DNA from: Chryseobacterium fluminis
GTDB lineage: Bacteria; Bacteroidota; Bacteroidia; Flavobacteriales; Weeksellaceae
Direction: 5' to 3'
Length of the DNA: 64,000 nt
NCBI RefSeq assembly: GCF_026314945.1
Contig: NZ_CP111121.1
Span: forward strand, 4,278,001-4,342,000
This document shows positions 10,813-19,248 of this stretch, in pieces (within the stretch, counting starts at the first letter, position 1; each line of letters opens with the position of its first letter). The position numbers and the translations under genes are program-made. Below the pieces are notes generated by a model. The model was not told where the DNA came from and ran no database searches. It saw only the letters and a program-made list of their open reading frames with translations.

Positions 10813-11100
10813 TACCATCTGAAAAAACCATCTGTAAAACCAGGGCAGACAAATACAATACCGATACAATATTCCGGAGATTATAAAATGGATTTTGAAG
10901 CTGCAAGTTTGGCAGCTTTAGGACAGAAGAGTACACCCAAAGGATATGTCTGGCATCATCTGGATGATTATGATCCGGTAACCAATACGGGTACCATGCA
11001 GCTGGTAAAGCAACAGGCTCATAACGGGATTTCGCATGTCGGGGGTTGTAGCCAGTATAAAACAGCTACTGGTAACTCATATACTTTTAAAACTTGGTAA
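10813..11100 (+). pseudogene. Orphan WHH (HNH/ENDO VII-type) nuclease toxin tip
   Basis: An open frame starts after a stop at 10810-10812; its first ATG is at 10888 (70 residues). The sequence holds the hallmark of WHH-type HNH/ENDO VII nuclease toxins: a lead-in YSGDYKMDFEAAS, then GYVWHH, GTMQLV, and closing His residues in AHNGISHVGG. In the ORF from 10888 the motif is W22-H23-H24, with His45 and His50. These domains normally sit at the C-terminal end of large polymorphic toxins. Here the carrier is missing, so this is a displaced tip. The nuclease fold itself may be complete, so expression from 10888 could still be toxic. An immunity gene follows 11 bp downstream. Confidence 0.72.
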
Positions 11101-11111
11101 ATATAATTATT

Positions 11112-11522
11112 ATGGAATTTGAGCAGACAGAAAAACAGCTAACTGAACTTGAGATTTCAGAATTTGAAAAAACAAACGGGATTAATCTTCCTGAGGATTT
11201 TATACAGCATTATCTGAATTATAATGGTGGATATCCCCCTTACGAATATGTAAAAGGGGTAAGAAATATCTTTACAATTAATGGTTTTAATTCATTGAAG
11301 TATGGCTCTTTGCCTATTGAACAAATTATTGCAGATTATAGAAAAAGCGGAATTATTTTCGAAAAAAAGATTCCGTTTGCCTATGATAATGGGGGCAATG
11401 TTTTCGTAATATCTGAAAATGGACAGGTACACATTATTGAAGCGGAATTCTTAGCTGACAAAAAATTTATTTTAGTTTCGGAAACTTTTACAGATTTTTT
11501 GAATTCTTTTTATAACGAGTAA
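11112..11522 (+). CDS. SMI1/KNR4 (SUKH) family immunity protein
   Basis: 136 residues from the ATG at 11112. A TTG start at 11094 is also in frame but would overlap the toxin stop. The SUKH superfamily is recognised from ISEFEKTNGINLPEDF, YLNYNGGYPP and PFAYDNGGNVFVI, the usual order in SMI1/KNR4 domains. SUKH proteins are cytoplasmic immunity proteins that pair with many nuclease toxins, WHH and HNH types included. Its position directly behind the WHH fragment makes it the cognate immunity. It is intact although the toxin carrier is lost, as expected where a defensive gene is kept against kin that still fire the toxin. Confidence 0.85.
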   Translation: MEFEQTEKQLTELEISEFEKTNGINLPEDFIQHYLNYNGGYPPYEYVKGVRNIFTINGFNSLKYGSLPIEQIIADYRKSGIIFEKKIPFAYDNGGNVFVISENGQVHIIEAEFLADKKFILVSETFTDFLNSFYNE

Positions 11523-11708
11523 ATATTTGAGGATGGACAATGAAATGATCATAGGTAAAGACGCTCATATAAGCATCATCTCATAAAATAATAAGGAAGA
11601 AATGACCTTTCCAATGATGAATTAAAACGTTAATATATGTTATAAAGATCTTTCCAAAAACAGAAATTTATTATCTTTAATATTCAATTTAATTTTAATA
11701 AAAACAGT

Positions 11709-12060
11709 ATGGAAGCCTACAATTTTGAAACAGCGATTAAACCCTTTTTCTGGGTGTCATCCGAAAAAACTTCTTCAGTTTGTTTAAATGCGGGAACGTA
11801 CAAAACCGGATATCTTTGAATGGAGAAAAGATGAAGGTTTTGAAGGGAATGGTTATGACTGGACTTCACTGGCAAAAGTTTTTATCAGCGAGAAAAAACC
11901 ACATCTTGCTGATGATATTAAATTCGATCCGGAAGCCGATATGTTCTGTGCCTACTCCGAAAAGCCGGAAAGCCTGAAAGAATTCATTTCAGATTTCAAA
12001 AAAACCTGTGATGACGATATGGTAATTCAGGATTTGTTTTCCAAAGCAGAATTAGATTAA
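11709..12060 (+). pseudogene. Frameshifted Imm51-type immunity gene
   Basis: The ATG at 11709 opens a frame reading MEAYNFETAIKPFFWVSSEK and then SVCLNAGTYKT before stopping just after 11810. The rest of the domain continues in another frame as IFEWRKDEGFEGNGYDW, then SLAKVF, FDPEADMFCAYS, and to the natural end at 12060. Removing one G from the GG at 11808-11809 joins both into a protein of about 116 residues with the Imm51 pattern (EGFEGNGYDW, FDPEADMFC). It is therefore an immunity gene broken by a one-base insertion, or a sequencing error. No partner toxin is present beside it. Confidence 0.75.
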
Positions 12061-15984: not shown

Positions 15985-16380
15985 TCAGACACTGTATTCA
16001 ATCCCGCCGATGTATACCAGAGAAAAGAAATCATTTTCTACGGAAACAGGTTTTGGGATTTGCTTATTCAGAAAAATAATCGAATTGATATCCATATCAA
16101 GATTCATCGCATTGATTCTGTTAATTAAAATAGGAAGCCATTGCTCTGCGAATGAATAGTCTGAAAACTTTTCATAAAGTCCGATATTTCTGTCATCAAA
16201 GCCGTATTCTACAAAATCATGATCAAGCCAGATGGTGTCCTGGGATTCTGCAAATTTTGAAATGTATTTCTCGTCTGATTCTTCTTCCAGATAAAAATTT
16301 TCATCCTCTTCTACAAAGTCATAAAAATCCTCCTCGCTGTTGAAATTTCCTACCCAGAAATCTAGTGTTTCTATTGTCAT
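15985..16380 (-). CDS. Imm22-family (DUF4284-like) immunity protein
   Basis: 131 residues, very acidic. The opening LDFWVGNFNSEEDFYDF, followed by ISKFAESQ and WLDHDFVEYGF, is the pattern I associate with DUF4284/Imm22, a cytoplasmic immunity family found beside polymorphic toxins. No toxin gene lies next to it. Its start is only 13 bp downstream of the stop of the DUF4435 gene on the same strand, so read-through from that cassette is possible, although its base composition is closer to the backbone than to the AT-rich cassette. It may be a stranded immunity gene like those at 11.1-12.0 kb. Confidence 0.72.
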   Translation of the reverse strand: MTIETLDFWVGNFNSEEDFYDFVEEDENFYLEEESDEKYISKFAESQDTIWLDHDFVEYGFDDRNIGLYEKFSDYSFAEQWLPILINRINAMNLDMDINSIIFLNKQIPKPVSVENDFFSLVYIGGIEYSV

Positions 16381-16393
16381 AATTGTTTTACTA

Positions 16394-17260
16394 TTAACTT
16401 TTTATATATGAATTTATTTCTGTTTTTAGATATAAAAGAGCTTTGTCATTAATGTCTTTTGATAATAAATAAGTGAATGATTCAAGTGTCATTTGGGATA
16501 TTAAATTTAAACTTTGTAAATATTCCTTGTAGAATAACAATAAATATTTACCCGGTATATTACTTAATGCTAATTGTTGTGTTTTAAAATATTTTTTAAA
16601 TTTTCGTAACTGATTTGAAAGTGAGAATCTTGAATTAATGTTCTTTAACAAAATTTGAATTTCATCATAATAATCTGTAATGAAATTCATTCTGTAACAA
16701 GGATACGGAGTTGAAAAATCAAAATCTCGAGCATTATTTATTTTATAATAAGGATGGTTTAATGATTTTTCTTGAATTATTATAAATACGCATGCCAATT
16801 CTTTTAAACATTGTACAGATTGTTTTTGCATAAATTTATAATTTAATAATAAGTCAATTTGGTGATTTTTTAATTTAGGATCTTTTATACGTATAATTTC
16901 ATAGATTGATTCCTTTTCAAATAAGTAATTTTCAATTGAATATTTTCTTAAATAAAAAAGATTATCAAGGATACTGACTCTAGAAAGTATTAAATCAAAA
17001 TCTAAATCAGCAATGTATATTTTCTTTTTATTCCCATGATTAATGCCTGCAGAACTTATAATATTAGATTTTCCATTTAAAGGAAAAATTTTTTCAAAGA
17101 CTAAATCAGGAAATAATTTTTTTAGAATATTAAAGTATAAATGTTCTTGATCAGTATCTTCAATGTAAAATTCTACTTCATTAAACTGTGTGTAAAGAAT
17201 ATCCTGTCCCAATAAAAATGAATCAGTAAATTCAGGAAAACCAATTTGAGTATTATTCAT
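16394..17260 (-). CDS. ariB: DUF4435 TOPRIM-type protein, PARIS AriB-like
   Basis: 288 residues. The order of motifs fits DUF4435: EFYIEDTDQEHLYF with candidate catalytic Glu34, LNGKSNI (about 62-68), IYIADLDFD with Asp85/87/89, and SIENYL (108-113). The Glu plus DxD arrangement is the TOPRIM metal centre. In PARIS the AriB protein is released by its ATPase partner on sensing a phage anti-restriction protein and acts as a nuclease that stops translation by cutting tRNA. It overlaps the upstream ATPase gene by 8 bp, so the two are translationally coupled. The gene is far more AT-rich than its surroundings, suggesting transfer. Assignment rests on gene pair, lengths and motifs. Confidence 0.78.
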   Translation of the reverse strand: MNNTQIGFPEFTDSFLLGQDILYTQFNEVEFYIEDTDQEHLYFNILKKLFPDLVFEKIFPLNGKSNIISSAGINHGNKKKIYIADLDFDLILSRVSILDNLFYLRKYSIENYLFEKESIYEIIRIKDPKLKNHQIDLLLNYKFMQKQSVQCLKELACVFIIIQEKSLNHPYYKINNARDFDFSTPYPCYRMNFITDYYDEIQILLKNINSRFSLSNQLRKFKKYFKTQQLALSNIPGKYLLLFYKEYLQSLNLISQMTLESFTYLLSKDINDKALLYLKTEINSYIKS

Positions 17261-18611
17261 TATAAGGTAATAAAATTTTAGTTTTTATTCTTTTTTTATT
17301 TGCTAATATAGGAGAGTGTGTTGCTAATATTAATTGTATACCACTAGGTGTTATTCTTTCCAACTGATCTAAAAAATCTTCTTGCCATTTAATATGTAAA
17401 GAAAGTTCAGGCTCGTCAATTATAAAAATTTTACCATCTTGACTGTTAAAGGCAATATATGAGAAAAGTATTAAAAGCTGCTGCTCTCCAGATGATAAAA
17501 ATCTAAGATCTCGATATGGATTTAAAATTTCACCTCTTCTATCAAGAGTATGAAAACATAGTTCAGCAGTATCATCTTTAAACAATATTTTTTTTGAAGA
17601 ATCTTTCAAAAAAAAATTCAAAGTATCTATAAAATTAATAATTTTCTCTAATTTCTTATTTGATTCGGTATCAAATTGTTCAAACTCTTTTAGTAATTTA
17701 TTAACCTTAACAAATTGACTTGAATTTAAATTATATAATAATTTAAATGTTGGATCTGTTGAATTTTCATCATATTTAATAATAACTTCTTTTAAGTTGG
17801 TGAAAAAATTAGATATAATTTTTTTTGCAGTATTGTCTAATACACTTTTTTCGATATTTATAAAATAGTCATTTACTCTTTTTTCAGCTTTTTCTATTTG
17901 ATTAATTGTAAGCTTATTCCTACTAGTTACTGATATAGAATCTAATGTTATACTACCTTCAAATGAGGATAACATTAGGTGATTTTTTAGATTATTAGTT
18001 AGTTTTAATATTTCATTTTTTTTTCTTCTATATTCTTTGTTCAATATATCTTTAACTCTATCTAATGGAGAATATTTAGATATTGATTTCCTGTTAGCTA
18101 TAGATTCATGACTGCTTTCATAATATAAATATTCAGATTCTTCTGCATATAAATTCCTATCGAGACCGATAACAGTGGGGCTTGGAAATGTAGAAATTAG
18201 CTCCCAAGTTTCTTGTTCTTCAGAGTCAGGTTTTAAACGAGCATATTGAGTTATTAAACTATCTCTAAGTGATTCGTTTTCATTTAGTTCTGAGGGTGGC
18301 GTGATAATTTTGACAATTAAGGGATGAAATTTAACTTTATTACGTTTAATGTTATAAGCAAATTTTATTTTATCATGTTGGCATTTAATTTCGTAATCAT
18401 CATTGTTAAATGTGAAAAATAATTGAATATAGTCAAATTGAGTTATACAAAGGTTTTCAATTGATGGTTTTAATACCCAATTTATAATATTAAGTATACT
18501 GGTTTTACCTGAACCATTTATTCCCACAAGCAATGTTAAATCGTCATTGAATTCAATTGATTTATCTATATAACCATATAAATTTTTTATAATAATTTTA
18601 TTGATTTGCAT
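17253..18611 (-). CDS. ariA: AAA/ABC-type ATPase, PARIS AriA-like
   Basis: 452 residues from the ATG at 18611; an in-frame TTG at 18629 is less likely because a promoter box would fall next to it. The Walker A is GINGSGKTS (30-38, Lys36) right after an N-terminal strand of the SMC/AAA15 type. Near the C-terminus come the ABC signature LSSGEQQLL, Walker B KIFIIDEPELSLH and the switch ATHS. Between them is a long helical, Lys/Glu-rich insert, probably coiled coil. This is the architecture of AriA, the scaffold and sensor of PARIS, and the size matches as I remember it. Its partner DUF4435 gene overlaps the stop. OLD-family or other SMC-like defence ATPases are the alternative, but those pair with different nucleases. 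Confidence 0.78.
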   Translation of the reverse strand: MQINKIIIKNLYGYIDKSIEFNDDLTLLVGINGSGKTSILNIINWVLKPSIENLCITQFDYIQLFFTFNNDDYEIKCQHDKIKFAYNIKRNKVKFHPLIVKIITPPSELNENESLRDSLITQYARLKPDSEEQETWELISTFPSPTVIGLDRNLYAEESEYLYYESSHESIANRKSISKYSPLDRVKDILNKEYRRKKNEILKLTNNLKNHLMLSSFEGSITLDSISVTSRNKLTINQIEKAEKRVNDYFINIEKSVLDNTAKKIISNFFTNLKEVIIKYDENSTDPTFKLLYNLNSSQFVKVNKLLKEFEQFDTESNKKLEKIINFIDTLNFFLKDSSKKILFKDDTAELCFHTLDRRGEILNPYRDLRFLSSGEQQLLILFSYIAFNSQDGKIFIIDEPELSLHIKWQEDFLDQLERITPSGIQLILATHSPILANKKRIKTKILLPYNE

Positions 18612-18626
18612 ATATATTACTTTTAA

Positions 18627-18656
18627 CAAATATATATATAATTACATAAATGTAAT
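18627..18656 (-). promoter_or_regulatory. Promoter and operator-like palindrome of the ATPase/DUF4435 cassette
   Basis: On the minus strand TATATTTG (18634-18627) fits the -7 box, 16 bases upstream of the ATG. Just upstream of it, 18641-18656 is a perfect palindrome, ATTACAT-AA-ATGTAAT. It would sit between the -7 and -33 regions, where a bound protein would block the polymerase. Confidence 0.5.
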
Positions 18657-18690
18657 AAGGAAACCCGTAAACCTACTTTTATCATATAAT

Positions 18691-19248
18691 TTACAAAACT
18701 CTTTTCTCCAATTCACTTTCTCTGATGGTCTTTTCCAGTCGCGACAACCTCGTTTTCTCCTGCTTTGCCCGCATGATCCAATGCAGCATTACTTTTTGGT
18801 AAGAAGGAGCCTGACTGTTAAAAAATTCCCAGGCTTTTTTATGGGCTTTAAAAATCTTTTCAAATTCAGGATCCAGCGTTGCCGGTTCTTTTTCGTGAGA
18901 ATAAATGGCTGATTTTTCTTCCTTTCGGAGCTCAAAAGCTTTTAATCCTTCAGGTTTCATTAATCCGGCTTCTGAAAGCACTTCAACTTTTTTAATATTG
19001 ATGGCACTCCAGATGCTGGTAGATTTTCGGGGAGTAAAACGGATGCTGTAACTTTCATGATCAATCGATTTTCTCACTCCGTCGATCCATCCGAAACACA
19101 GTGCCTGATCTACAGACTGTGACCAGGTAAGAGAAGGTTTTTTCGTTCCGACTTTATAGAATCCGACCACCAGCTCTTTCGCAGTGATATGGTTTTTCTC
19201 CAGCCATTCCCGGAACTCTTCCTGTGTTGTAAAAAATGTGGCAGTCAT
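18691..19248 (-). CDS. YdeI/OmpD-associated family protein
   Basis: 185 residues. The family is recognised from WLEKNHITAKELVVGFYKVG, SLTWSQSVDQALCFGWIDG, SIRFTPRKSTSIWSAIN and the Lys/Arg-rich tail. Some related proteins are annotated as bacteriocin-protection proteins, but the biochemical role is unsettled. It has no signal peptide. It begins 2 bp after the stop of the HD-hydrolase gene, so the two form a unit, which in turn may start with the membrane protein at 19799-20647. Confidence 0.85.
   Translation of the reverse strand: MTATFFTTQEEFREWLEKNHITAKELVVGFYKVGTKKPSLTWSQSVDQALCFGWIDGVRKSIDHESYSIRFTPRKSTSIWSAINIKKVEVLSEAGLMKPEGLKAFELRKEEKSAIYSHEKEPATLDPEFEKIFKAHKKAWEFFNSQAPSYQKVMLHWIMRAKQEKTRLSRLEKTIRESELEKRVL

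Follow-up and report, generated by a model that had tools for sequence, protein, structure and literature searches.

Which system is encoded by the two overlapping, AT-rich genes found at a backbone site in the chromosome of Chryseobacterium fluminis (contig NZ_CP111121.1, positions 4,278,001–4,342,000; this whole stretch of 64,000 nucleotides is called the window here)? The genes are two minus-strand open reading frames (ORFs), which together span positions 16394–18611 and share the 8 bp (17253–17260) that had been noticed in an original prediction made from the letters of the window. That prediction took the pair to be PARIS, an anti-phage system of an ATPase (AriA, encoded upstream) and a DUF4435-type TOPRIM protein (AriB, encoded downstream), and we are highly confident that the pair is indeed a two-gene PARIS anti-phage system. 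The cassette is an intact, apparently acquired PARIS of a Bacteroidota clade; its designation as flavobacterial, which fits the genus Chryseobacterium, is very probably correct. This reading is supported directly by the architecture of the genes, the homology of both subunits and the folds predicted for them, by the conservation of candidate active-site residues, by the constant pairing of the two genes at the loci found, and by relatives that have no cassette at this place.

When the two proteins were compared with the PADLOC profiles, AriA and AriB were the top matches. The AriB profile matches residues 31–248 of the 288-aa protein with an E-value of 1.2e-15, PD-Lambda-2_C following much more weakly (0.0052); in NCBIfam the protein has no match. 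The ATPase is matched best by AriA (three AriA models, the best with 2.6e-30 and 104.5 bits), followed by MAD3 (68.4 bits), PtuA (67.1 bits) and OLD (56.8 bits), and in Pfam by AAA_15 with 95 bits. It is thus an ABC-type ATPase of the AAA_15/AAA_21 kind homologous to AriA, and it has all three motifs described earlier: the Walker A P-loop GINGSGKT, the signature LSSGEQQLL and the Walker B motif IIDEPELSLH. Since 120 PADLOC families match the ATPase at E ≤ 0.1, however, the ATPase by itself is not diagnostic. All 44 AriA members of an alignment drawn from 120 proteins listed among 1297 hits match AriA. The corresponding alignment of 51 AriB relatives, from 120 proteins listed among 209 hits, has 50 members that match the AriB profile and 44 that match DUF4435 (PF14491) at E ≤ 0.001. 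The AriB of the window belongs to the DUF4435 family through these relatives and its fold rather than by the published Pfam threshold; the earlier assignment therefore stands in so far as it rests on the relatives and on the PADLOC AriB profile, but not as a Pfam match of the protein itself. Structures predicted for each subunit alone, not for the complex, agree with the profiles: AriB has a TOPRIM-type fold that is closest to the solved AriB, and AriA is a closer match to the ATPase than PtuA, Rad50 or OLD.

The predicted AriB has conserved candidate residues for an active site. Glu34 and D85-L-D87-F-D89, to which attention had already been drawn, are present in the ORF, and Glu34, Lys64, Asp85, Asp87, Asn100, Ile109, Glu110 and Asn111 do not vary among 16 AriBs (the window protein and 15 others, whose identity ranges from 62% to 19% and which come from Bacteroidota, Proteobacteria and one Lactococcus plasmid). 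In the E. coli enzyme, for which a two-metal TOPRIM site is favoured, the E26A mutant gives no cleavage products (Belukhina et al., PMC12409363). The position of Glu34 would correspond to that of E26 if the structural alignment holds at its end points; for a residue-by-residue mapping of E. coli Glu26, Lys60 and Lys64, sequence searches of the PDB reached no AriB.

The two genes also occur together elsewhere. One scan of named genomes yielded 22 loci encoding AriB relatives, and in all 22 ariA lies immediately upstream of ariB, although it is cut by a contig end in two of them (L005 and L008) and split in a third (L018). An AriA is likewise upstream in L002 and L003, two of three further loci from the same genus. 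A conserved third gene was looked for and rejected, as no neighbour apart from ariA and ariB is shared by more than two of 23 loci. In the split locus (L018, 6601–7997; Chryseobacterium sp. legu1) the ariA relative forms two ORFs beside an intact ariB, which may reflect a broken cassette or a sequencing error.

The pair is, as had been claimed, far more AT-rich than its surroundings, with a G+C content of 0.237 versus 0.391 in the remainder of the window, where the minimum among 1147 stretches of the same size is 0.32. G+C at third codon positions (GC3) is 0.14 in both genes versus 0.36–0.43 in six other genes of the window. The limits of the cassette need one comment: the ATPase ORF was listed as 17253–18629 (458 aa from a TTG at 18629), but the starts of homologues align with the ATG at 18611, a few homologues having extra residues before this Met, so that an AriA of 452 aa is likely (Table 1) and the previously given upper end, 18656, lies 45 bp past the likely start codon.

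Table 1. The PARIS cassette and the backbone genes on either side of it (positions in the window)
Feature	Position	Strand	Description
ariA	17253..18611	-	AAA_15/ABC-type ATPase, 452 aa, predicted sensor and inhibitor; P-loop, LSSGEQ, IIDEPELSLH Walker B
ariB	16394..17260	-	DUF4435-type TOPRIM nuclease, 288 aa, predicted tRNA-cleaving effector; Glu34, Asp85, Asp87, Asp89
Left flanking backbone gene, DUF4284/Immunity protein 22	15985..16380	-	131 aa; Pfam PF14112, 33.3 bits; outside the cassette
Right flanking backbone gene, OmdA/YdeI family	18691..19248	-	185 aa; Pfam PF13376, 64.7 bits; outside the cassette

That the pair was inserted between backbone genes is borne out by relatives that lack it at the equivalent place. 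The left flanking gene was matched in 22 of the 23 same-genus relatives searched; in 14 it adjoins the right one, and in the other 9 the two were not found side by side. None of the 14 genomes with adjoining flank genes has an AriB relative (E ≤ 0.001) anywhere. The gap between the flank genes, obtained by subtraction of match coordinates, is 25–237 bp in 10 of the 14; in the others it is larger (844 bp in one genome, 1461–1645 bp in three) and holds other short ORFs of at most 249 aa. A defence hotspot at this site was rejected as unproven, the gaps being short or occupied by other short ORFs. No mechanism of insertion was recognised: the window is free of tRNA genes, a pair of direct repeats on either side of the cassette is absent from 16200–18900, and a Pfam scan of ten ORFs gave no integrase.

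PARIS itself is already well understood. In E. coli, an AriA ring, an Ocr-type trigger, release and dimerisation of AriB and the cutting of tRNA have been described (PMC11455837, PMC12409363, PMC12409349). By analogy, the AriA of the window would assemble into an ATP-binding ring that keeps AriB inactive until AriA is bound by a phage protein, probably one of the anti-restriction proteins (Ocr, Arn and others) that trigger PARIS; AriB would then be freed, dimerise and cut specific host tRNAs via its TOPRIM site (Glu34, Asp85, Asp87), whereupon translation would halt and the infection abort. An N6 DNA methyltransferase (PF02384 family) is encoded in the host genome. It would be in keeping with a restriction system that phages have to overcome, but it says little because 13 of 14 control genomes also carry one.

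Which tRNAs could be cut? E. coli AriB cuts the tRNAs for Lys (UUU), Thr (UGU) and Asn (GUU) within the anticodon stem-loop, the site being UAAUC↓A, and contacts beyond the anticodon arm are also required. Its targets share UAAU at positions 36–39 and are cleaved after position 40 (PMC12409363). In the host, 28 stretches covering 63 of 77 tRNA matches were surveyed, the remaining 14 matches being pairs that score equal to the fetched pair on contig 1; ARAGORN made 64 predictions on these stretches, at least one of them extra. The Lys, Thr and Asn tRNAs were read from the printed sequences and the other tRNAs by a script search that was one base off for tRNA-Lys. At positions 36–41 tRNA-Lys(UUU) has UAAUGU in all three predictions, tRNA-Thr(UGU) has UAAUCU in two of three, tRNA-Asn(GUU) has UAAUCA in two of three, and of the seven CAU tRNAs one has UAAUCA. 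If the specificity were as in E. coli, tRNA-Asn and this one CAU tRNA would fit the motif best, which is a lead only because of the further contacts needed and because the two AriBs are very distant. One could imagine that the clade has shifted both ends of the pathway, AriB cutting tRNA-Asn(GUU) and a CAU tRNA rather than tRNA-Lys(UUU) and AriA reading a flavobacterial phage trigger unrelated to Ocr; we regard this as possible but rather doubtful.

The likeness to E. coli PARIS (AriA/AriB; 8ux9, 8v45–8v49) consists in the AAA_15-type ATPase and the TOPRIM AriB, which are the closest folds, in the same Walker B neighbourhood and in the conserved set of Glu and Asp candidate active-site residues. 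The systems differ in the size of AriB (288 aa versus 306 residues in the solved chain), in location, a chromosomal backbone site here versus a P4-satellite hotspot in E. coli (PMC9122126), and in structural identity, which is 20% for AriA. For AriB it is just 11%, and this is one of several observations that weigh against the assignment to PARIS. Sequence searches led to no AriB chain in the PDB, and profiles built from 51 or from 23 sequences did not change this. The AriB of the window has no Pfam match at E ≤ 0.1, DUF4435 included, and would therefore fail the first published PARIS detection rule, which sets a DUF4435 score of 27 (PMC9122126). L004, the third of the further same-genus loci, with an AriB-like match of 52 residues, is without AriA, and the host tRNA-Lys(UUU) does not have the cleavage site of the E. 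coli enzyme. On the side of the ATPase, PtuA leads in NCBIfam (47.6 bits, far under the cut-off of 500 bits), and all 44 AriA members also match models of PtuA, MAD3, AbiLi and OLD, for which the best E-values are weaker.

These last findings would suit another kind of ATPase-nuclease defence, such as Septu (PtuAB) or an OLD/Gabija-like DNA nuclease of two genes, with a TOPRIM protein that would cut DNA and not tRNA. PtuA of Septu and of retron Ec78 has a related ABC ATPase fold, and OLD and Gabija GajA share the combination of ATPase and TOPRIM. The Septu partner nuclease PtuB, however, is of the HNH type; no PtuB profile in PADLOC matches the partner protein at E ≤ 0.1, and a PtuA-type ATPase with an HNH partner is thus not what was found. 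As Septu/PtuA, MAD3, AbiLi and OLD all have lower profile and fold scores than AriA, they were rejected for the ATPase, and a defence of this other kind is very improbable. A shade less probable again is that the pair is simply a toxin-antitoxin or addiction module, or a decayed remnant with no role in defence. In favour of this are the small size and AT-richness of the cassette; PADLOC and Pfam recognised no further defence gene directly beside it, and a commentary places PARIS in the toxin-antitoxin class (PMC11455837); but both frames are open with intact motifs, the active residues are kept in relatives of 43–68% identity, and E. coli PARIS with either gene deleted is non-toxic and has lost defence, as reported in PMC9122126. 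A PARIS system thus accounts best for the pair.

The locus contributes a PARIS cassette with clear limits that is remote from the E. coli systems studied. It shows that members of this sort can be overlooked when a strict Pfam threshold for DUF4435 is applied, and the same site with and without the cassette inside one genus provides a ready comparison for phages and tRNA targets outside the enterobacteria. A literature search found no paper joining DUF4435, PARIS and a Bacteroidota-type term. The Bacteroidota AriAB relatives, which likewise have ariA beside ariB in the loci read but other chromosomal neighbours, carry no annotation more specific than AAA family ATPase, DUF4435 or hypothetical protein; AriB relatives of 50–59% identity are found, for example, in Niabella beijingensis, Aequorivita soesokkakensis and Chryseobacterium sp. 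W4I1. A search of 172 other genomes of the genus with the AriB sequence gave a single close relative, at 50%, besides two weak matches, and the named-genome collection added one of 42% in another Chryseobacterium (L018). The AriB profile matches in 11 of 173 same-genus genomes, the own genome included, and in 2 of 14 control genomes; PARIS has been reported in 5.2% of prokaryote genomes (PMC9122126).

In the phage and plasmid collections there were distant matches only, to one phage (44% query cover) and two Lactococcus plasmids. The phage is Sinorhizobium phage Aussie (OR786373.1), in which a hypothetical protein (1930–2313) matches AriB residues 4–130 with an E-value of 8e-11. Lactococcus lactis plasmid p001F carries a pair of AAA ATPase and DUF4435 genes (L081, 3638–5828) that lies between two transposases, one of the IS4 type upstream and one of IS30 downstream, and is likely to be a mobile PARIS relative. 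A second, very different ariAB pair is found in a genome of the same genus (G018; L083, 3–2169); it is directly followed by a gene for what we take, from the start of the protein, to resemble a DUF262-type protein. Finally, in the window itself, immunity-protein-type genes of the SMI1/KNR4, Imm51 and Imm22 types (11094–12060 and 15985–16380) lie on both sides of polA, and these three may be linked to polymorphic toxin immunity.
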